36,904 nucleotides of DNA from an uncultured SAR86 cluster bacterium (GCA_902561325.1 CACEOL010000011.1:1-36904); one strand, 5' to 3'; counted from the stretch's first letter, positions 2,460 to 36,904 are shown. Notes: generated by a model from the sequence alone, not told the origin. Program-made: numbers and translations.

Positions 2460-3020
2460 TTAGTCTAAAAGTTCTTCCGAGGCTATGTTAGTTAATTCTT
2501 CTTCAAAAACTAAGTCCTTTGTAGAATTAAGTCTATCCACATACAAAAATCCAAATAAATGATCAAGCTCGTGTTGAAATACGGTTGCTAAAAAATCTTC
2601 AACTACTACTTCTTTTTCATCGGCATTTTCATTTAAATAATTAATTTTAAGCTTTCGAGGCCTTTCAACGTATCCTCTTAAACCAGGAACGCTAAGACAG
2701 CCTTCCCAGAAGCCTTGTTTTTGTTCATCAATTACTTCTAATTTTGGATTAAATATGACGAATTCTTCAGAATTTTCTAAATTATCGTATCTTTCTGAGT
2801 TGCTTTCCAATTTTATGACGGCTAATTGGATAGATATTCCTATTTGAGGCGCAGCCAAGCCAATTCCGCCGGCTTTTTTCATAACATCCCACATTTTAGG
2901 AATTAATTTCTGTATTTGAGAAGATAAAATTTCTTCCTTGCTTAGTTCTTTAGCTGTCAGCCTTAAAATAGGATTACCTAATTTTAAAATTTTGAAGTCA
3001 TTTTCAGAGATTTTTGTCAT
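2460..3020 (-). CDS. def: peptide deformylase
   Basis: Removes the formyl group from the N-terminal methionine of nascent proteins. All three family motifs are present: GIGLAAPQ at residues 52-59, EGCLS at 106-110 with the metal ligand Cys108, and HELDH at 150-154 with metal ligands His150 and His154 and catalytic Glu151. Length (186 aa) is normal. The usual Asn after the HExxH motif (HLNG) is Phe (HLFG), a mild divergence. The gene leads a minus-strand run with the CIA30, RDRSWGVRP and phosphotransferase genes and is not next to fmt, the common partner, so this may be an accessory paralogue rather than the housekeeping copy. Confidence 0.93.
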   Translation of the reverse strand: MTKISENDFKILKLGNPILRLTAKELSKEEILSSQIQKLIPKMWDVMKKAGGIGLAAPQIGISIQLAVIKLESNSERYDNLENSEEFVIFNPKLEVIDEQKQGFWEGCLSVPGLRGYVERPRKLKINYLNENADEKEVVVEDFLATVFQHELDHLFGFLYVDRLNSTKDLVFEEELTNIASEELLD

Positions 3021-3062
3021 AAAAATACCTAATTATATTGTTAAATTTAGCTTTCACTAAAA

Positions 3063-3091
3063 TTGACTTAAGTTTTTAAAGGTCTTAAACT
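3063..3091 (+). promoter_or_regulatory. sigma-70-type promoter of the lipoprotein gene
   Basis: TTGACT at 3063-3068 and TAAACT at 3086-3091 are separated by exactly 17 bases and sit about 40 bases upstream of the lipoprotein ATG at 3134, which has AGGAGA at 3120-3125 as ribosome binding site. The -35 box matches 5 of 6 consensus bases and the -10 box 4 of 6. It lies in the divergent gap between def and the lipoprotein gene. Confidence 0.5.
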
Positions 3092-3133
3092 TGCCGTCGT
3101 AAAGGCATATTAAGTGTCTTAGGAGAATTATCA

Positions 3134-3625
3134 ATGATTTTAAATAATTTAAAAAACTTATTTGGTCAATTTTTAAAACTTGTAGCTTCAGTAGCTTTAT
3201 TAGTTTTAGTTGGTTGTTCAAGCACTCCTTTTATGCAGAACAATATTGTTGCAACAAAATATCTTTTGGATAATTTTGTTGAAGATGCTGGTGGAAAAGG
3301 ACAAATAAATGCTGAAACTTATCATTGGGAAGTAGATGCTACAGCATTAGGTTGTGCTGAACTTCAAGCTGAAAGAATCAGGCATTCTGCTTTAATTGAT
3401 GGTGTTGCAGAAAAAGTAATTGAAAATTCATCTAGATCTACTAGTTATGCATTATATGGACTTGAAATGCATGATCCTTCTGCAGGTACAAGTTTTATTG
3501 GTGTTAAATCTACAGGATTAAATCCTGAGGTTGCGGAGTATAGAAAATTAAAATTAGCTGTAGAAAAGTTAAAATCCGCTTCGATTGACAAATGTACTTC
3601 TGCTGAAGTAATGAGAACTCCCTAA
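3134..3625 (+). CDS. putative lipoprotein of unknown function
   Basis: A 163-residue protein with a charged N-terminus, a hydrophobic core (VASVALLVLV) and the lipobox LVGC with the lipidated Cys at residue 28, so it should be a membrane-anchored lipoprotein. SerSer follows the Cys, giving no Asp retention signal, so outer-membrane sorting is expected. The mature part contains two further Cys (in LGCAEL and DKCTSAE) that could form a disulfide. I do not recognise a domain. Codons end strongly in A or T and the gene has a good promoter and Shine-Dalgarno sequence, hinting at solid expression. It is monocistronic: divergent from def and convergent with the carboxyltransferase gene. Confidence 0.82.
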   Translation: MILNNLKNLFGQFLKLVASVALLVLVGCSSTPFMQNNIVATKYLLDNFVEDAGGKGQINAETYHWEVDATALGCAELQAERIRHSALIDGVAEKVIENSSRSTSYALYGLEMHDPSAGTSFIGVKSTGLNPEVAEYRKLKLAVEKLKSASIDKCTSAEVMRTP

Positions 3626-3638
3626 TTAAGGGAAAAAT

Positions 3639-5153
3639 TTAACCAGTTTCCAAAGCTTTTAAAATTATCGACCTAGTTTCTGCTGGGTCGATAACTGCAT
3701 CAATTTCTAATTGAGTGGCAGCCTCTAAAGCCTTTCCAGCGTCATACATTTTTTGAACGAGTTTATTGAATAATTCTTCTCTTTCCTTATCATCTTCAAT
3801 TGCCTCCAGCTCTTTCTTGTAGCCTAGTTTGACTGCGCCCTCTAAACCCATTCCACCGAACTCTCCTGTCGGCCAAGAAGCTGTGAAAATGGGTATATAA
3901 AAACTTCCTCCAACCATAGCCATCGCGCCCAATCCATAGCCTTTTCTTAAAAAGATTGCTACCAGAGGAACTGAGATGTTTGCTCCTGAATTAAAAAGGC
4001 TGCCCATTTTTCTTACAGCACCCTCTCTTTCGCTATCAACGCCAACCATAAAACCAGGAGTGTCTGCTAGAGAAACTATTGGAAGATTGTGTTCGTTACA
4101 AATTGAAATGAACTGCCCAGCTTTTTCGGCTGAGATTGCATCAACAGCTCCACCTAAGTGCTGACAATCATTTGCAATAAGAGCCACTGGCTTACCCTCT
4201 AATCTTATAAACCCAGTAATTACACTTCGACCATAAATTTTTCTTACTTCTAAAAAAGAATCTTTATCGGCAATGGTTTCAATAATATCTCTAACCGAGT
4301 AAGCCATTCTTCTATTTTCTGGAATGAGATTTCTTAAAATCGATTGGTCCTTAGTTTCCCATTTATTAAGACTTCCCTGAAAGTAAGAAAGTAATTTCTT
4401 CGCAAAACTTGTTGCATCAGCTTCATCCTCTGCAAGATAATCAATAACACCCAATTTTTCTTGTTCTTCAGCTGGACCAATATCTTTTGGATTTACCTTG
4501 CCAAGTCCTCCTCCTTCTATCATTGCAGGACCTGCCATACCCAACCAAGAGTTTTTTGTAGAAATACAAAAATCAGCAGTTCCAAATAATGCAGCATTAC
4601 CAGCGAAACAATATCCATTGTTGACAGCAATTCTTAGGCTTTTTCCTTTTAATTTGGCCCAATTACTGAAGGAAGGAATTTGCAATCCAGCAAATTGAAC
4701 ATGCACGTCAGTATCTCCTGGCCTTCCTCCGCCGCCTTCTGTATACATTACGACAGGTAAATTCTGTTTTTCAGCCGTCTCGCAAATCCTATCTAATTTT
4801 TTATGGTGATAATAACCTTGGGTTCCTGCCAAGACTGAATAGTCATTGATTATTATTGCTGAAAGAGCTTCTTTATCATCTAAGATTTCACTATTAATTT
4901 TCCCAAATCCAGTAATTATTCCATCTGCAGCCGTTTCAGTTCTTAACTCTTCAAGTTCTCTTCTACTTTTTTGTGCAGCGATAGCAAGTTGACCGTATTC
5001 TACAAATGAATCTTTATCAACTAAGTGATCAAGATTTTCTCTAGCCGTTCTGTACCCTTTTTCGTATCTCTTCTGTCTAGCAACTTCCCTTTCTTCATCT
5101 AGGGTTTTAGATAATCTATTGTGAAGTTCTATAAGCTCTGATCTTTCTGACAT
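3639..5153 (-). CDS. acyl-CoA carboxylase carboxyltransferase (beta) subunit
   Basis: A 504-residue carboxyltransferase of the acetyl/propionyl-CoA carboxylase beta family, which transfers the carboxyl group from carboxybiotin to an acyl-CoA. Visible features are the N-terminal helical segment (ARQKRYEKGYRTAREN), the first crotonase-like half with EGGGGRPGD and GNAALFGTADF, and the second half with LIANDCQHLGGAVDA, LADTPGFMVG and MAMVGGSFY. Family length is typical. The gene begins on the base after the ATP-dependent acyl-CoA ligase stop codon, implying the two act on the same CoA ester. No biotin carboxylase or biotin-carrier gene is present in the window, so the partner subunit must be encoded elsewhere. 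Which acyl-CoA it uses cannot be read from the sequence. Confidence 0.87.
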   Translation of the reverse strand: MSERSELIELHNRLSKTLDEEREVARQKRYEKGYRTARENLDHLVDKDSFVEYGQLAIAAQKSRRELEELRTETAADGIITGFGKINSEILDDKEALSAIIINDYSVLAGTQGYYHHKKLDRICETAEKQNLPVVMYTEGGGGRPGDTDVHVQFAGLQIPSFSNWAKLKGKSLRIAVNNGYCFAGNAALFGTADFCISTKNSWLGMAGPAMIEGGGLGKVNPKDIGPAEEQEKLGVIDYLAEDEADATSFAKKLLSYFQGSLNKWETKDQSILRNLIPENRRMAYSVRDIIETIADKDSFLEVRKIYGRSVITGFIRLEGKPVALIANDCQHLGGAVDAISAEKAGQFISICNEHNLPIVSLADTPGFMVGVDSEREGAVRKMGSLFNSGANISVPLVAIFLRKGYGLGAMAMVGGSFYIPIFTASWPTGEFGGMGLEGAVKLGYKKELEAIEDDKEREELFNKLVQKMYDAGKALEAATQLEIDAVIDPAETRSIILKALETG

Positions 5154-8965: not shown

Positions 8966-9712
8966 CTATTGAAGAAGGAAATTTACTCCGCCTATATGAA
9001 TTAAATCATTCTTCATCAGACCAAGTTCTTTTGCTTTTTCATAAACTATTTCTTTATTTTTTACTGACAACTCAAAAGCATTAATTCCCTCACCTCTTTG
9101 ATCAAGGTCATCAACAAACTTTATTCTGGAGTCTGAGAAATTAATTTGAAGATTTTCATCTGCTTTAACCCCAAAAGCTTTTTCCCATTTTCTACAAAGA
9201 GCGGATTTATCATCGGATTGCATCACAACACCGCACAATCTCTCCGCATTATCATTTTTTGAGACACACTTCTCCCAATCAAGACCTGCCCAAAGCCAAG
9301 CTGATTCGGGTTCCATTTTATCTATTGAAACTATTGCTCCACCAATATGTTTAGGATGCAAGTGAATGGTTTTTCCAGTTACGTGGCCTTCGCTTCTCTC
9401 AGCTTCATAAACAATTCCAATATTTTCATTGGTTACTCGCTCTTTTTCTTTGGCAACGTCATCGCAATCTACAATTACCATGTAACCACCATTTCCACCT
9501 CTTCGATTAAGAAATCTTTCTGCAGTAGTGTTTTCTTTAACAGGAGTAACAATCTCTATAAAAGTATCGCCCAAAGGAATTAATGAATTTATTAGGCCAA
9601 AGTGGATAAGGCCATCATCATGGAAAGCTACTTTCAAATCAAATACATCACAAATTTGATTTGCAATTGCATCTCTTTCTTCAGCAACAATAACTAACTG
9701 TCTTAATCTCAT
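8966..9712 (-). CDS. VOC/glyoxalase-like domain protein
   Basis: A 248-residue protein of the vicinal-oxygen-chelate superfamily. The N-terminal half opens with the usual beta strand and helix (LRQLVIVAEERDAIANQICDVF), then FHDDGLIHFGLINSLIPLGDTFIEIVTP, which matches the glyoxalase-like strand pattern ending in the conserved FIEIV with its Glu. The C-terminal half seems to be a second, more divergent module (LCGVVMQSDDKSALCRKWEKAFG). Such proteins bind a divalent metal and act as dioxygenases, isomerases or lyases; the specific reaction is unknown. It is the first gene of the VOC-OMP-PhyH unit and is divergent from the crotonase gene at 9759. Confidence 0.78.
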   Translation of the reverse strand: MRLRQLVIVAEERDAIANQICDVFDLKVAFHDDGLIHFGLINSLIPLGDTFIEIVTPVKENTTAERFLNRRGGNGGYMVIVDCDDVAKEKERVTNENIGIVYEAERSEGHVTGKTIHLHPKHIGGAIVSIDKMEPESAWLWAGLDWEKCVSKNDNAERLCGVVMQSDDKSALCRKWEKAFGVKADENLQINFSDSRIKFVDDLDQRGEGINAFELSVKNKEIVYEKAKELGLMKNDLIHIGGVNFLLQ

Positions 9713-9758
9713 AATATTTGTAAAATAATACTTTAAGGATAAATAAAAGGAGAGAAAA

Positions 9759-10574
9759 ATGAAAGAAATAGATATGGGAACAGATCACCTAAAGGCTCTG
9801 AAAGGAGATGGTTTAGGAAAAATTATAATGAACAGGCCAGAAGCTAGAAATGCTATGTCAGATGAAATGAATGCAGCGATGATGGCAACGTTGGAAGACT
9901 TTGAAAATGATTCTGAAGTAAGAGCGGTTATTCTTACAGGCTCTGAAGGTGCTTTTTGTGCTGGTGGAGATGTAAAAGGTATGGCCAATAAAAAGGATGA
10001 TCCTAAACGAACAATTGATATAGCTATCCATGAGCAAAGGATTCACCAAAGAGGCACTTCGGGTAAATTATTCAAGATGCCCAAACCAACAATTGCTGCA
10101 GTGAACGGACCCGCAGCCGGAGCAGGAATGTCTTATGCTCTTTCTTGTGACCTTAGAATAATGTCCGATAGCGCTTTTTTTACTACTGCTTTTGCAAAAG
10201 TAGGCTTTTCTGGTGACTATGGAGGATCTTACTTTATGACTCAGTTAGTGGGTTTATCAAAGGCAAAAGAACTTTATTTTTTATCAGACAAAATTTCTGC
10301 TGAAGAAGCTCTAAAACTTGGTCTTACTAATTGGGTTGTAAAACACGAAGAACTTGAGCAGAAAACTTTAGAAATAGCTAAACAACTTGCTGAAGGTCCA
10401 GCAGTTGCTTTTCGATACATGAAAGAAAATCTAAATAGAGCTGTAAGCGGAGAAGTAGATGATTGTCTTGATCTAGAGGTCACGCATCATGTTCACTGCG
10501 GCCAAACAGAAGATCACAAAAATGCTACAAAAGCTTTCGTTGAAAAAAAACAACCAGTTTTCAAAGGTCGATGA
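9759..10574 (+). CDS. enoyl-CoA hydratase/isomerase (crotonase) family protein, Asp-type
   Basis: A 271-residue crotonase. GAFCAGGDVKGM near residues 64-75 forms the first half of the oxyanion hole, and NGPAAGAGMSYALSCDLR near 116-133 the second. The two Glu residues of classical enoyl-CoA hydratase are absent: the position within GGGCELAM is Ser125 and the one in PExxLG is Ala. Asp153 in GFSGDYGGSYF instead corresponds to the catalytic Asp of PaaG-like and dienoyl-CoA isomerases, so an isomerase-type reaction is more likely than hydration. A strong ribosome binding site (AAAGGAGAG) precedes the ATG. The stop codon abuts the stop codon of the convergent MDR reductase gene with no bases between. 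Confidence 0.88.
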   Translation: MKEIDMGTDHLKALKGDGLGKIIMNRPEARNAMSDEMNAAMMATLEDFENDSEVRAVILTGSEGAFCAGGDVKGMANKKDDPKRTIDIAIHEQRIHQRGTSGKLFKMPKPTIAAVNGPAAGAGMSYALSCDLRIMSDSAFFTTAFAKVGFSGDYGGSYFMTQLVGLSKAKELYFLSDKISAEEALKLGLTNWVVKHEELEQKTLEIAKQLAEGPAVAFRYMKENLNRAVSGEVDDCLDLEVTHHVHCGQTEDHKNATKAFVEKKQPVFKGR

Positions 10575-31608: not shown

Positions 31609-32331
31609 GTGATTGAGTTAGAAAAAAAAGAATCTATTTATCATTTGTGTATGAACGCAGGTGAAAACCGATGGAATACTACATTCGTAAGACAGTTTGC
31701 TGAAGCATTGGATGAAATTGAAAAAGATGAGGGTCCAGGAGCATTAGTAACATCTTCTAAAGATCCTAAATTCTTTTCAAATGGGTTAGATCTTGACTGG
31801 ATGCAAAACCCAGAAGACTATCCTGAAAGTGGAGATAGAGAAGTTTTTGGTGAAGAATTCATGTACTTAATGGGAAGGATTATTACTTTACCAATCCCAA
31901 GTATTTCTGTGGTCAATGGTCATGCTTTTGGTGCAGGTTTTATGTTAGCTCTCTCACATGATATTAGATTGATGAGAGAGGATCGAGGATTCCTCTGCGC
32001 AAATGAAATGCAACTTGGATTTAAAATACCGAGACCAGAATTGGCTTTATTTAGACATAAAATTCCTGCGAATTCATTTTTTGAGACCGTTCAACTATCC
32101 AAGCGTTGGACTGGAGAAGCTGCTTTTGCTGCTGGAATTGTTCAAGGCAAGGGTTCCTTTGAAGAATTACCCAATATAGCAATAAAAAAAGCAGAAGAAT
32201 TGGCACCTCTTGCAAAAAATAGAAAACATTATGCTGCTCAAAAAGAAATGCTGTATGGAGAAAATGCAGCTATAAATTTAAACCATGGGCCAGCGCATAT
32301 GTTGAAAAATTCAAAAGAATTTGAAGTTTAA
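31609..32331 (+). CDS. delta3,delta2-enoyl-CoA isomerase-like crotonase, GTG start
   Basis: A 240-residue crotonase of the type found as plant peroxisomal enoyl-CoA isomerases. Diagnostic blocks are NAGENRWNT near residues 16-24, SKDPKFFSNGLDLDWM at 50-65 (oxyanion hole), NGHAFGAGFMLALSHDIRLMREDRGF at 103-128 and ANEMQLGFKIPRP, where Glu133 is the likely single catalytic acid/base. Such enzymes move a beta,gamma double bond to alpha,beta during oxidation of unsaturated fatty acids. The start is GTG, with AGG eight bases upstream; an internal ATG at codon 15 would remove conserved residues. It is monocistronic, between the divergent GST unit and the convergent GFA gene. Confidence 0.85.
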   Translation: MIELEKKESIYHLCMNAGENRWNTTFVRQFAEALDEIEKDEGPGALVTSSKDPKFFSNGLDLDWMQNPEDYPESGDREVFGEEFMYLMGRIITLPIPSISVVNGHAFGAGFMLALSHDIRLMREDRGFLCANEMQLGFKIPRPELALFRHKIPANSFFETVQLSKRWTGEAAFAAGIVQGKGSFEELPNIAIKKAEELAPLAKNRKHYAAQKEMLYGENAAINLNHGPAHMLKNSKEFEV

Positions 32332-32381: not shown

Positions 32382-32732
32382 CTAATCGTGACTTGCGCCA
32401 TCCACTAAACCTATTTTGATATCTTCAGGCAAATCTAAATCATCTAGACAGGCAAAATTTACTGCTATTTGATCGGGATATCTTCTTCTTTTGTGGTGAG
32501 TATAAATCCCGCAAACTTTACAAAAATAATGCTCAGCAATATTTTTATTCCATTTGTATAAACCTAAATATTCATTGCCTTCTAACAAAGTAAAAAATTC
32601 CTGAGATATCGGTTTCATTACAATGGATTTCTTTTTACATAATGAGCAGTTACATTTATATATATCCTCATAAATATTCTTGGTTTCTATTTGAAAACGA
32701 ACTTTCTTACAATGACAGGATCCTTGAAACAT
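32382..32732 (-). CDS. GFA/CENP-V-type zinc protein
   Basis: A 116-residue protein of the glutathione-dependent formaldehyde-activating-like family. The zinc ligands are all visible: Cys6 and Cys8 in GSCHCKKVRF, Cys27, Cys29 and Cys32 in CNCSLC, and Cys71 and Cys74 in CKVCG. Most members are uncharacterised small zinc proteins; the formaldehyde role holds only for Gfa itself. Its ribosome binding site (GGGAG) lies inside the guaA-like repeat that ends four bases before the ATG, so its translation may have been set up by the insertion that placed the repeat there. Confidence 0.88.
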   Translation of the reverse strand: MFQGSCHCKKVRFQIETKNIYEDIYKCNCSLCKKKSIVMKPISQEFFTLLEGNEYLGLYKWNKNIAEHYFCKVCGIYTHHKRRRYPDQIAVNFACLDDLDLPEDIKIGLVDGASHD

Positions 32733-32735
32733 ATT

Positions 32736-32756
32736 TTACTCCCACTCAATGGTTGC
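32736..32756 (-). repeat. guaA 3'-end-like direct repeat, copy 1 (putative att scar)
   Basis: Read on the minus strand this encodes A-T-I-E-W-E followed by TAA, identical to the conserved C-terminus of GMP synthase (GuaA). The reading frame in front stays open for about 30 codons but is not GuaA (KGVSEAMFY just before). The plus-strand core TCCCACTCAAT at 32740-32750 recurs at 36198-36208. The 3' end of guaA is a known target of island and prophage integrases, so this is best explained as an attachment-site remnant. No integrase is nearby. Confidence 0.55.
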
Positions 32757-32766
32757 ATAAAACATC

Positions 32767-32777
32767 GCCTCTGAAAC
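32767..32777 (+). repeat. left arm of 11-bp inverted repeat around the MBL gene
   Basis: GCCTCTGAAAC here is matched by its exact reverse complement GTTTCAGAGGC at 34328-34338. The two arms enclose the whole MBL-fold gene and its promoter region, about 1.57 kb. This may be chance, a decayed terminal repeat or a recombination scar. Confidence 0.4.
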
Positions 32778-32835
32778 CCCTTTTAGAACTGGGTTTCCGA
32801 TGACCTTTTTTTGCTTTATTGACTTTATCAAAGAA

Positions 32836-32853
32836 ATATTAATCGATTAATAT
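32836..32853. promoter_or_regulatory. 18-bp perfect palindrome overlapping a TATAAT box (operator candidate)
   Basis: ATATTAATCGATTAATAT is a perfect 18-base palindrome. Its last base is the first base of a consensus -10 box TATAAT at 32853-32858, 47 bases before the MBL gene ATG at 32906. A dimeric regulator bound here would cover the promoter. No clear -35 box is present at the correct spacing, which would suit an activator-dependent or repressor-controlled promoter. Confidence 0.42.
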
Positions 32854-32905
32854 ATAATTTATGTAGTTTAACTTTCAGATATATTTATTTTCAAAAGAAT
32901 TTTTA

Positions 32906-34249
32906 ATGATTGGATTTGAAACAATTGGTAATGCTACTGTTACTGTTTTTGACAATTTTAAGCCAATAATATCTACAGATCCGTGGGTCTACGGTAATCC
33001 ATATTTTGGTAGTTGGGGCCATAAATATAATATACCCAAACAACAAATTGAAAACATACAAAATTCCGAATTTGTATGGTTTTCTCATGGTCATCCAGAT
33101 CATTTAAATGCAGACTCTTTGGACTTGGTTGGCAAGAGCAAAATTTTAATTGCAGATCATTATGGGGACAGAATTATTAACGGGTTAAAAAATAGTAACT
33201 TAAATTGTATTAAGCTGAAAAGTAATCAATGGCTTGATTTATCAGATAATGTGAGAATAAAAAGCTTTTCAGATTGGAATCAAGATTCCTGTCTATTAAT
33301 TGAAATATCAAAAAAAGATATTCTTTTTAATCTAAATGATGGAGCAGCAAAGGGATGGAATAGTACTATAAAGAATATCATCAAAAATTACCGAAATAGG
33401 TTTCTTCTTAAACTCATTAATTGGGGAGATGCAGATATGTTAAATCTTTATGACGAAAATGGACAATTCATTCAGCCTTCAAACCCAAATTCAATTCAAG
33501 TAGGATCTGAGTATTCTAAATATATGAAGTATTGGAACTGTAATTATGCATTGCCATTTTCATCTTTACATACATACGTTCGTCCAGATTCAATACACAT
33601 GAATGAATTTGTTACCCCTTTAAGTAAACACTCCTCAGGTTTTGATAGTTCTGTGGGTGATTTGTTGCCTGCATTTATTCAATGGGATACAAATAGCCAA
33701 ACTTACAAGAAAATCAAAGTTGATAAAAATAAAGAAATATTAACAAACTTATCAGACTATGGTGACAATTGGTCAGATCAGCTTGATAAGAAGGACTTTT
33801 CTTTAATTGAGAAATATTTTAATCAATTTTATCATCTAAAGAAAAATTTTGGGTTTATATGTTTTAAAGTTGGCGGCAGGGAACATTTTATTAAATTTTC
33901 AGATAAGAAAAGCGGCATTATATTTGAAACACCTCGTAAATCTTTAATGGTTGCTGTTGAAAATGAAATTTTTGACGATTTACTAATAGGTAATTTTGCA
34001 AAAACAACATTAGTAAATATTAAAGATCTTTATCCAAACTTTACTCCATATGTTGCTAAATATGGTGATAATGGGCTTGCCAGGTCAAAAGATGAATTAA
34101 GATTGTATTTTGATTTTTACAAAGCTAACTCAATGGATTTTTGGATGGATATGTTTAAATTTAATACTGAAAACATTATAAGAGAATCATTTTCAAATAA
34201 AAGTTTGGTTTTTAAATCAGCAAAAAAAATTAAAAACTGGTTTATTTGA
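32906..34249 (+). CDS. MBL-fold metallohydrolase-like protein (UlaG/CMP-sialate hydroxylase-like)
   Basis: A 447-residue protein with a metallo-beta-lactamase-fold N-terminal half. The metal motif HGHPDH is at residues 61-66 after FVWFSHGH; later, LFNLNDGAAKGW and FLLKLINWGDADM supply possible further ligands. Length and C-terminal extension resemble UlaG-like and CMP-N-acetylneuraminate hydroxylase-like proteins, often found in surface-polysaccharide islands; no Rieske cluster is present. The DNA is visibly more AT-rich than its neighbours, with Asn, Lys and Ile in excess, pointing to transfer. It is alone on the plus strand within the interval bounded by the guaA-like repeats, and has only a weak ribosome binding site (AAAAGAA). 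Activity uncertain. Confidence 0.72.
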   Translation: MIGFETIGNATVTVFDNFKPIISTDPWVYGNPYFGSWGHKYNIPKQQIENIQNSEFVWFSHGHPDHLNADSLDLVGKSKILIADHYGDRIINGLKNSNLNCIKLKSNQWLDLSDNVRIKSFSDWNQDSCLLIEISKKDILFNLNDGAAKGWNSTIKNIIKNYRNRFLLKLINWGDADMLNLYDENGQFIQPSNPNSIQVGSEYSKYMKYWNCNYALPFSSLHTYVRPDSIHMNEFVTPLSKHSSGFDSSVGDLLPAFIQWDTNSQTYKKIKVDKNKEILTNLSDYGDNWSDQLDKKDFSLIEKYFNQFYHLKKNFGFICFKVGGREHFIKFSDKKSGIIFETPRKSLMVAVENEIFDDLLIGNFAKTTLVNIKDLYPNFTPYVAKYGDNGLARSKDELRLYFDFYKANSMDFWMDMFKFNTENIIRESFSNKSLVFKSAKKIKNWFI

Positions 34250-34327
34250 TCTATTAAAAAATATGTCTAACGTTAATTCTCATTCCTACTAAGTAATAGC
34301 CTAATCCGGAAGTCTTATAGATAGGAT

Positions 34328-34338
34328 GTTTCAGAGGC
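34328..34338 (+). repeat. right arm of 11-bp inverted repeat around the MBL gene
   Basis: GTTTCAGAGGC is the reverse complement of the arm at 32767-32777. It is followed by CAT and a run of seven T, so this spot might also serve as a poor terminator for the MBL gene, but no convincing stem forms locally. Confidence 0.38.
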
Positions 34339-34352
34339 ATTTTTTTAAAGAG

Positions 34353-35357
34353 CTAAAAATTAAAATTACTTAAAATAGCAGGAATTATTTCAGATAGAAG
34401 TTGATCAGGAATCTCATGACCAACTCCTTCAAGGATTAACTTTTTTGAATCTGGAATGTTGTCAAATAAATATATTCCATGATCAACTGGTATCAGAGGA
34501 TCTTCGGTGCCGTGAATAACTAAAGTTGGTTTTTTAATAAGTTTTAAACTAGACGCTCTATTTGGGCTGGCCCCAACTGCAGCTATTTGAGCATTTGATG
34601 TATTGATTCCTTGTTCTGTCCTAATTTTTATATCGTTTATAAAAAGGTCTTCATCAAATAGAAAACGAGAACCTCTCAATGATTTTTCAGTTACTAATAA
34701 GGCTTCTTCTTCCCTACCATTCAAATTTAAAATAAAGGATTCTTTCATAGACTTCTTAAAGCGTTCGCTTGGGCCAGATAAGCCAGGAGTATCGAACCCT
34801 GGAGTTGTAAAGAAAAGTGTTAATGATTTAACTCTTTCAGGATATTCTAAGGCCAGTACCTGAGCTATCATTCCACCCATAGATGCTCCTATGATGTGAG
34901 CTTCACTAATACCCATATTATCAAGCAACATGACTCCGTCATTTGCCATATCACTTAAGTTATATTCAGCTGGAGCTGGATTTTCCATATTGAATTTACC
35001 CTCTTCATTAAAAATAAAGCCAAAAATAAATTCAACAAAATATTCTTTCAGAAAATTAGGTAATATCTTAATGAAGCTAATCAATCTAGGCTCTTCTGTA
35101 ACCCAAGTACTCTTTCCTATATCTCGATTATCAAAAATAATGACATGCAAATCATTATCAACTAACTCTTGGATGTACTTTTCAGACCAAACTTTACTGT
35201 TTGAATTTAATCCCATAATCATCAAAACTGCAGGATCTGCTGGATTTCCAAAGGAATTCCACCAAATGTCTAAACCGTTTATTTTTGAAATATTTCCTTC
35301 TTCTGATTCAAGGTTCATGCACAAGAAGGTAAGAATTAAAATTAGTGATTTCTTCAT
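34353..35357 (-). CDS. exported alpha/beta-hydrolase
   Basis: A 334-residue alpha/beta-hydrolase with N-terminal signal sequence (MKKSLILILTFLCMNLESEEG). The nucleophile is Ser159 in GASMGG (157-162), preceded by the typical IIFDNRDIGKST oxyanion-side block; the acid is in HGTEDPLIPV and the His is near 314 in VGHEIPD. A hydrophobic cap (FVEFIFGFIFNEEG) suggests a lipophilic ester substrate. I chose the ATG at 35357, not the longer frame from 35435, because it starts exactly at the signal peptide and because the longer version would run into the crotonase gene. It follows that gene by 16 bases as the second gene of a pair. Lipase/esterase activity is likely, substrate unknown. Confidence 0.83.
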   Translation of the reverse strand: MKKSLILILTFLCMNLESEEGNISKINGLDIWWNSFGNPADPAVLMIMGLNSNSKVWSEKYIQELVDNDLHVIIFDNRDIGKSTWVTEEPRLISFIKILPNFLKEYFVEFIFGFIFNEEGKFNMENPAPAEYNLSDMANDGVMLLDNMGISEAHIIGASMGGMIAQVLALEYPERVKSLTLFFTTPGFDTPGLSGPSERFKKSMKESFILNLNGREEEALLVTEKSLRGSRFLFDEDLFINDIKIRTEQGINTSNAQIAAVGASPNRASSLKLIKKPTLVIHGTEDPLIPVDHGIYLFDNIPDSKKLILEGVGHEIPDQLLSEIIPAILSNFNF

Positions 35358-35373
35358 ACTTAGTTTATTTCCG

Positions 35374-36168
35374 CTATGAGCCTTTGAACTCTGGATCTCG
35401 CTTTTCAATAAAGGATTGCATACCTTCTTTGGCATCCTCGGTGGCTAAAGTAACTCTTCTCATGTTGTCAATCTCCGCAAAGGCTGCTGCCTCTCCAAAT
35501 TCTAAATAAACCTGTGAAGCTCTCTTAATCTCCTGAAGTGCTATAGGAGCACACTGACCTATCTCCCTTGCTATCTCTTTAGCTCTTTCTAATTGTGATC
35601 CTGCAGATACTACCTCTTGGACGAACCCTAACTCCTTAGCCCGAGATGCATTGAATTCATCAGCTCTGAGAAGATGATACATGGCATTTCCCCAACCCGC
35701 TCGTTGAACGTATCGAACATGTGCACCCCCGAAAACTGCCAAGCCTCTTTTGGGTTCTAGTTGACAAAAACGACAATCATCTGCAGCGATAACAATGTCT
35801 GCAGCTAATAATATTTCAATACCAATGGTGTAAGTAATGCCTTGCACAGCAGCTACGATAGGTTTAGTACATCGACGTTTTAAGGCAAAGGCATCGGGTC
35901 GATTTTCAGAAAGTAAAGAGTCTTGGTTAGAATCAGAATTTGGGCCAAAAAAGCGAGGTAAGTCTAGTCCAGACGTAGTGTGTTCTCCTGCAAAACAAAG
36001 AATACCAACCCAAAGTTCCGAGTCCTGTTCAAGTAGCTCTAGGGCCGTAGTTATTCCTTCAAACATTTCAGGAGTAAAACCGTTCATCTTTTCTTGTCGG
36101 TCAATTTCGATAATCAAAGTACTTCCTTCTCTTTCTGTTCTTACTGTGCCATTTGAATTTTGATTCAT
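35374..36168 (-). CDS. enoyl-CoA hydratase/isomerase family protein, two-Glu type
   Basis: A 264-residue crotonase. Unlike the crotonase at 9759, both hydratase-type acids are present: Glu118 in YTIGIEILLAADIV and Glu138 in CRFCQLEPKRG. The oxyanion block is EHTTSGLDLPRFFG near 62-75 rather than the usual AGADL, and the terminal EGMQSFIEKRDPEFKG is typical. The ATG at 36166-36168 has GAGGT at good distance. It forms a pair with the alpha/beta-hydrolase gene downstream, and its start lies 25 bases from the guaA-like repeat copy 2, within the putative inserted module. Hydration of a specific enoyl-CoA is likely, identity unknown. Confidence 0.86.
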   Translation of the reverse strand: MNQNSNGTVRTEREGSTLIIEIDRQEKMNGFTPEMFEGITTALELLEQDSELWVGILCFAGEHTTSGLDLPRFFGPNSDSNQDSLLSENRPDAFALKRRCTKPIVAAVQGITYTIGIEILLAADIVIAADDCRFCQLEPKRGLAVFGGAHVRYVQRAGWGNAMYHLLRADEFNASRAKELGFVQEVVSAGSQLERAKEIAREIGQCAPIALQEIKRASQVYLEFGEAAAFAEIDNMRRVTLATEDAKEGMQSFIEKRDPEFKGS

Positions 36169-36193
36169 ATATTTACCTCATACATACTTCATT

Positions 36194-36214
36194 CTATTCC
36201 CACTCAATAGTACC
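36194..36214 (-). repeat. guaA 3'-end-like direct repeat, copy 2 (putative att scar)
   Basis: On the minus strand this encodes G-T-I-E-W-E followed by TAG, again the GuaA C-terminus. It shares the plus-strand core TCCCACTCAAT (36198-36208) with copy 1 in the same orientation, 3458 bases apart. The differences between copies in the Thr codon, the last Glu codon and the stop codon are all synonymous, as expected for guaA ends from diverged hosts. Confidence 0.55.
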
Positions 36215-36328
36215 ACTCTTAGAAAACCCTTTAATATCAGTACTTTCAGGGCGATAAAATTTACTTAGTTGAAAGTTAGTTACTGAGTTTTGTCCCTTTT
36301 CTCTTATTTTCAGCTGTTTTTGATCCAT
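36194..36328 (-). CDS. 44-residue ORF ending in GuaA-like TIEWE (probably a chimaeric remnant)
   Basis: An ORF from ATG 36328 gives 44 residues, polar and basic at the start (MDQKQLKIREKGQ) and ending DIKGFSKSGTIEWE. The last codons equal those of guaA while the rest does not resemble GMP synthase, and no Shine-Dalgarno sequence precedes the ATG. The frame stays open upstream to 36383. I regard it as inserted DNA fused to an attachment-site remnant; a real small gene cannot be excluded. Confidence 0.3.
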   Translation of the reverse strand: MDQKQLKIREKGQNSVTNFQLSKFYRPESTDIKGFSKSGTIEWE

Positions 36329-36557: not shown

Positions 36558-36904
36558 CTACTCGATTAGTTGATCATTTAGAGGCCTAAAATTGAGATTT
36601 ACTAGTTTCCGCCATCGCATTTGTCTATAGGAGTAAAAAATGAATGCGTAGATATAGATTGGTAATGTGAAAAGACCAGCATCGATAGAAACCTCATCTG
36701 TATATCGAGTTCCGCCTCCCTCCGATTCTAAAAAAATTAGATGATCCCAAGTTTTTGCTATAGAACCACTTCCATTATCTCTGAGAACCCAATGATCGGA
36801 TTTTTGTGGAAATTCTATACCTATAATTTGTTTTCCGATGGGTAAAAAATGAAATGCGAACATTTTTATGGAGAACTGCCTCTCAACCCATTTTGACGAA
36901 AAGG
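36558..36904 (-). CDS. SRPBCC-superfamily protein, N-terminus cut by window edge
   Basis: The frame is open from 36558 (TAG) to the right edge, giving 115 residues; the internal Met at 36863 is probably not the start, because the upstream codons also look coding (KWVERQFSIK). The C-terminal half, HWVLRDNGSGSIAKTWDHLIFLE followed by GGGTRYTDEVSIDAG, matches polyketide-cyclase/START-like ligand-binding proteins, and a final YAFIFYSYRQMRWRKLV helix closes the cavity. Such proteins bind hydrophobic ligands. Likely upstream partner of the SHOCT-like gene. The family usually has about 150 residues, so only 30-40 should be missing. Confidence 0.68.
   Translation of the reverse strand, partial: FSSKWVERQFSIKMFAFHFLPIGKQIIGIEFPQKSDHWVLRDNGSGSIAKTWDHLIFLESEGGGTRYTDEVSIDAGLFTLPIYIYAFIFYSYRQMRWRKLVNLNFRPLNDQLIE

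Follow-up and report, generated by a model that had tools for sequence, protein, structure and literature searches.

Why should the last codons of guaA, the GMP synthase gene, occur twice in a genomic segment where no guaA precedes them? The question is raised by a 36,904-nucleotide stretch of DNA from an uncultured SAR86 cluster bacterium (GCA_902561325.1 CACEOL010000011.1:1-36904; the whole stretch is called the window here), and in particular by its positions 32736-36214. A preliminary description of the window had read this segment as a single 3.5-kb module left by tandem island insertions at guaA, with an intact guaA expected to the right of the window and no integrase to account for the scars. 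Our comparison with related genomes indicates that the segment very probably belongs to a tandem array in which mobile gene cassettes are stacked at an attachment site (attB), the 3' end of guaA, in SAR86.

Copies of the guaA end in the window and in relatives

Both copies lie on the minus strand and encode T-I-E-W-E-stop, copy 1 (32736-32753) as ACC ATT GAG TGG GAG TAA and copy 2 (36194-36211) as ACT ATT GAG TGG GAA TAG. The 11-mer ATTGAGTGGGA is common to both, and the differences, all synonymous, are confined to the Thr codon, the final Glu codon and the stop codon. No guaA coding sequence lies upstream of either copy. All of this agrees with the preliminary description. Dinucleotide shuffles of the window produced at least two near-matches in 1 of 100 cases, and the two copies are the sole exact matches in the 1.17-Mb assembly.

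Relatives indicate where such copies belong. Of 15 congeners, 14 have an intact guaA whose end shows the TIEWE-stop pattern; three of these have a second exact 18-base pattern 0.5-4.3 kb downstream of it, and a shorter core pattern reveals more. Across 40 genomes of the family, the exact 15-bp core WTYGAGTGGGARTRR, which contains the 8-bp sequence GAGTGGGA, is found in up to five copies, located at guaA itself or shortly downstream and sharing its strand; one exact site, in G001, could not be placed relative to guaA. In many genomes one to four further copies follow downstream, each usually terminating a cassette. By a tally from our table, about 72 of the 203 genomes of the order, belonging to four families, hold at least two exact copies, some of them on separate contigs. 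Thus, the congeners carry an intact guaA at this place followed by extra TIEWE-stop repeats, as the idea of tandem insertion at guaA had led one to expect.

Empty and filled sites form ladders in two genera. Within the window's genus, zero, one and two cassettes lie ahead of the same flank in G002, G008 and G010, respectively (flanks 92.6-98.6% identical); in another genus the same series is seen in G029, G028 and G023 (flanks 94.8-95.4% identical). In G029, guaA is joined straight to the flank. The segment is therefore present in some relatives and absent from others, with one repeat at the empty site (G002 and G029), which had been anticipated. Overall, zero to four cassettes separate guaA from the shared flank, as in an additive island of variable content.

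The same cassettes also recur in different genera. A 1001-bp hydrolase cassette stands at rank 2 in G010 and at rank 1 in G023 and G028 with 98.6-99.0% identity, whereas the adjoining guaA genes of G010 and G023 are 69.4% identical. Cassettes with SRPBCC (95.6-96.7%), HAD-like (92%) and dienelactone-hydrolase-like (94%) genes are likewise common to genera. Because these units of about 1 kb are 92-99% identical across genera whose guaA genes are 69-79% identical, and because they occupy different ranks next to different flanks, the comparison argues that cassettes moved between genera as units.

Cassette anatomy and the arm

The core-bounded units have a median length of about 1.05 kb (n = 38; weak cores were added to the list manually if they showed an arm or had a single mismatch), and most hold a single gene. 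Their first genes are predominantly oriented like guaA (30/36; sign test, 7e-5). Upstream of most non-guaA cores, in a fixed register, we identified an arm of about 45 bp that resembles GAAACCC-N11-GGGTTTC. Aligning 31 non-redundant arms gave 16.95 bits of information over 45 columns, compared to 2.96 +/- 0.36 bits (maximum 4.15) for random island segments and 4.43 +/- 0.59 for shifted ones.

Two core-bounded units contain no gene. One, of 119 bp (L047 (G006:C5), oriented 1790-1909), carries an arm at either end, as a minimal mobile unit would; the other measures 176 bp (L097 (G032:C1), oriented 4935-5111). Elsewhere in L097, at about 3730-3775 in the same orientation and just before a core, the sequence resembles the 3' part of a tRNA, and ARAGORN calls no tRNA there.

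A recombinase family located behind guaA

The window's cassettes contain no integrase, and every one of the 16 genomes in the genus encodes just one or two tyrosine recombinases, of XerC/XerD size. Scanning the family, we found dedicated integrases in G016 and G033, directly behind guaA and within a core-bounded unit; in both cases the integrase gene and a gene for a serine resolvase have four bases in common. A profile built from this pair identified one more member among the 203 genomes, again directly behind guaA (G166), and a scan of public genomes added one on a Methylophilaceae contig, also behind guaA. All four members found share this location. The neighborhood search for a tyrosine recombinase has thus yielded a site-specific family, and the notion of scars without an integrase is accurate for the window but needs amending, as the integrase exists in rare relatives. 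Since arrays break contigs and the assemblies are mostly incomplete, the true numbers of integrases and of cassettes may be higher than those given here.

At 51 of 66 positions, the G033 element's right arm agrees with arms of cassettes from other genera (random, 18.2 +/- 3.8), which ties the integrase-less cassettes to this recombinase family. Against Phage_integrase the SAR86 integrases give weak to moderate matches. An origin in phages was considered and rejected: IMG/VR gave no match (see Discussion), and phage and plasmid records contain only distant integrases (23-31% identity). On the Methylophilaceae contig (L109, 6207-8906), guaA is followed directly by the relative of the SAR86 integrase. 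This arrangement suggests that betaproteobacteria use this site as well; L109 lacks the Methylophilaceae tRNA-Lys repeat.

Other candidates were set aside. An integrase in G025 belongs to a different element (L104 (G025:C14), 9076-10462) with no guaA core nearby, and matches in G027 look like XerC/D fragments at a contig edge. The L104 element and the guaA-integrase element of G033 share a gene for a 211-aa membrane protein (MFGMLDYRAHKLY...). G016 additionally encodes a small THCHCLL-motif protein that may be an HUH nuclease and that no family library recognized. In L114 (G091:C1), at 2847-3306, a core is followed by a 152-aa N-terminal remnant resembling a tyrosine recombinase, possibly a decayed helper.

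Layout of the window

Read from guaA outward, the window's order would be SRPBCC cassette, copy 2, crotonase, core A, hydrolase, core B, MBL (metallo-beta-lactamase)-like gene, copy 1 and GFA-like gene. Cassette 1 carries the SRPBCC-like gene (36558-36904, minus strand), which is cut by the contig end. This cassette is 96-98% identical in nucleotide sequence to one in G005, G019 and G030, and its protein occurs in 4 of the 40 family genomes only, each time inside the array. Its right end is core copy 2 (ACTATTGAGTGGGAATAG; 36194-36211), whose right arm (36209-36253, minus strand) is identical to a G032 arm at 58 of 66 positions and to the arm of the G016 integrase element at 39 of 66.

Cassette 2 holds a crotonase, an enoyl-CoA hydratase/isomerase (35374-36168, minus strand; ECH_1, E 5.2e-38). 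Between it and the next gene lies a putative decayed core A (..TAGCGGAAATAA; 35365-35379, minus strand) that has no arm left and is weaker evidence than core B; the homologous position reads ACTGAGTGGGAATAA in G013 and ATTGAGCGGGAGTAA in G006. In these same two genomes, a homologue of the next gene, the exported alpha/beta hydrolase of cassette 3 (34353-35357, minus strand; Abhydrolase_1, E 3.7e-23), starts immediately after a core. The hydrolase cassette ends in decayed core B (ACTTAGTAGGAATGA, 3 mismatches; 34280-34294, minus strand), with its right arm at 34295-34339 (minus strand). Arm and core B together are identical to a G033 site at 56 of 81 positions, compared to a mean of 22.6 and a maximum of 44 among 200,000 random draws. 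In view of these two internal cores we rejected a single three-gene module of 3.5 kb, and we replace that earlier reading with three fused single-gene cassettes.

Cassette 4 contains the MBL-like gene, an open reading frame on the plus strand with an SHGHPDHL motif (32906-34249) that is reversed relative to guaA. Its 447-aa product, with a metallo-beta-lactamase-like HGHPDH motif, had no match in Pfam or PHROGs at E 0.001. The array's last right end, and its junction with the resident chromosome, is core copy 1 (ACCATTGAGTGGGAGTAA; 32736-32753). The right arm of copy 1 (32751-32795, minus strand), with the inverted repeat GGAAACCC...GGGGTTTC, stands about 9 bp farther from the core than usual, and its subtype also occurs in G026 (53/66 identical) and G019 (49/66; random 66-mers, 18.2 +/- 3.8). 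From the first base of the core onward, the sequence after copy 1 matches the empty guaA junction of G002 (88.6% over 370 bp). The first gene after the array is GFA-like (32382-32732, minus strand) and in G002 lies directly behind guaA. Beyond it, a second crotonase gene (31609-32331, plus strand; protein family F3) opens the conserved right flank of the island and is found in nearly all regions compared. The window contains no tRNA, and we rejected a tRNA as the insertion target.

Discussion

These observations are consistent with a mechanism in which a cassette usually comprises one gene, then an arm of about 45 bp to which the recombinase would bind, and then a core restating the last codons of guaA. 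The guaA-specific tyrosine recombinase, supplied by an occasional larger element and in many cases accompanied by a serine resolvase, would join the core of a cassette, presumably in circular form, to a core at guaA or within the array. From the sequence, we infer that crossover takes place in the 7-bp GAGTGGG between CTATT and AATAG. Each insertion would regenerate the TIEWE-stop end and push older cassettes outward, and because this end is restored, guaA would remain functional; recombination between two cores would excise cassettes. Cassettes without an integrase would persist and be mobilized in trans when a helper enters the cell, and some route must presumably carry them from cell to cell.

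Several results weigh against this model. An integrase of the family is missing from 200 of the 203 order genomes, which is why we propose action in trans only as an inference. IMG/VR contains no match for the integrase, nor for the exact pattern GGGTTTCAGA...core, which represents one arm subtype, and no circular cassette was seen. A few cores have no recognizable arm. The inverted repeat of the arm receives no clear support from covariation, as the observed pairing was reached by 52 of 1000 permutations, and we rejected a base-paired hairpin here, the sequence being conserved without convincing covariation. Finally, guaA is not found above the cut-off in the window's own assembly (86.7% complete). 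Because of this, and because the window is an entire contig (C11) that ends at 36904, adjacency to guaA cannot be shown in this genome; the predicted intact guaA beside the array is present in congeners, and it is on relatives that the placement rests.

The most serious alternative, which we nevertheless regard as unlikely, is that the units are remnants of autonomous elements that accreted at guaA, lost their integrases in place and are now immobile alone, as with cis-mobilizable elements (CIMEs). Accretion is described for integrative and conjugative elements (ICEs) and integrative and mobilizable elements (IMEs) (PMC5704250), complete elements with a tyrosine recombinase and resolvase occupy the same site in SAR86, and the recombinase remnant of G091 lies behind a core. 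However, the shared units carry no remnants of mobility genes, and their near-identity across genera, at other ranks and beside other flanks, points to movement as a unit. Decay with accretion and cassette movement may both be at work.

We give much less weight to RecA-dependent homologous recombination between strains, by which whole islands would be swapped and the short repeats would be incidental. Some flanks do look mosaic, as G008 and G010 are 98.6% identical downstream but 90.4% in guaA. Yet both boundaries of the shared cassettes coincide with the 15-bp core, beside guaA genes of only 69% identity; the match is too divergent and too short to serve RecA, and fixed arms precede most cores. 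A chromosomal integron, using IntI and attC, is more improbable again: it would explain why cassettes hold one gene each, why a recombination site follows every gene and why one gene orientation prevails, but the genomes of the genus have XerC and XerD only and no IntI, the site is a guaA-type core and not attC, the anchor is guaA and not attI, and none of the integrases found reaches the cut-off of an integron family. A chance match or an assembly artefact could be suspected of a metagenome-assembled contig that ends within the array, but has next to no probability in our judgment, given that independent assemblies from different genera, some of them with single-cell style isolate names (AG-333-P02, AG-339-G14), contain these same cassettes and cores.

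Returning to cassette movement at guaA, we tentatively put forward a broader possibility: an integron-like system free of IntI. Here guaA would serve as the platform for cassettes of one gene, an arm and a core, the guaA promoter might drive transcription of the array, and a rare pair of tyrosine recombinase and serine resolvase would act in trans across the population. SAR86 bacteria are abundant and mostly uncultured; their genomes are small and show little mobile DNA. One docking site at which single genes arrive and leave would explain variation among these genomes and indicate where recently acquired genes should be sought. It would also link the guaA site to an integrase that lies behind guaA in a betaproteobacterium as well, and the exact cores and arms yield testable predictions.

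Comparison with known systems

The closest experimental precedent is GIsul2, whose integrase recognizes GAGTGGGA at guaA and, in recA- E. coli, mobilizes the island as well as the integrase-less CR2-sul2 unit (PMC9376610); ICERspD18B uses the same guaA site (PMC7775301). SAR86 resembles both in inserting at the guaA 3' end with this 8-bp core (PMC9376610, PMC7775301), which is present in both window copies and at the guaA of relatives, as it is in both att sites of guaA islands. For GIsul2, an extra internal att site and a resG gene are also listed. In contrast, GIsul2-type islands span 15-28 kb, whereas SAR86 units are mostly single-gene, about 1 kb long and arranged in stacks of up to four. 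A P4-type integrase together with AlpA is usual for guaA islands, but the SAR86 integrase is paired with a serine resolvase instead, and no AlpA-like gene turned up, although no search aimed at AlpA was made. The array would extend the trans-mobilization demonstrated for GIsul2 to many small, non-resistance cassettes moving between ocean genera.

Stacking at a gene end is already known from accretion, CIMEs and additive flexible islands. Like CIMEs and tandemly accreted ICEs and IMEs (PMC5704250), the cassettes are att-flanked, have no integration or transfer genes and are stacked at one gene end. CIMEs, however, are decayed large elements, whereas the small SAR86 units are nearly unchanged between genera. 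As to an origin by decay of a larger element, one recombinase remnant occurs in G091, and most cassettes show none. The flexible genomic island fGI-2 of 'Ca. Methylopumilus', another streamlined plankton bacterium, also has varying numbers of gene-end repeats before variable islands (PMC10872708), but its target is tRNA-Lys and not guaA, and the available part of that report does not describe cassettes, arms, an integrase or transfer between genera. Tycheposons are likewise cargo elements of marine plankton that sit at gene ends and have a tyrosine recombinase; they use tRNA sites and measure 4-200 kb, according to the same source (PMC10872708), and the SAR86 target is guaA. As in integrons, each cassette has one gene and one recombination site, mostly in one orientation, with the integrase elsewhere. 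Despite this similar layout, the SAR86 array is not an integron, because IntI, attC and attI are absent, and its anchor is a housekeeping gene. In the literature that we searched, which was not exhaustive, we found no description of guaA cassettes, flexible islands or such arrays in SAR86. What sets the SAR86 array apart is a small, single-gene, integrase-less unit that has its own arm and is nearly unchanged between genera.

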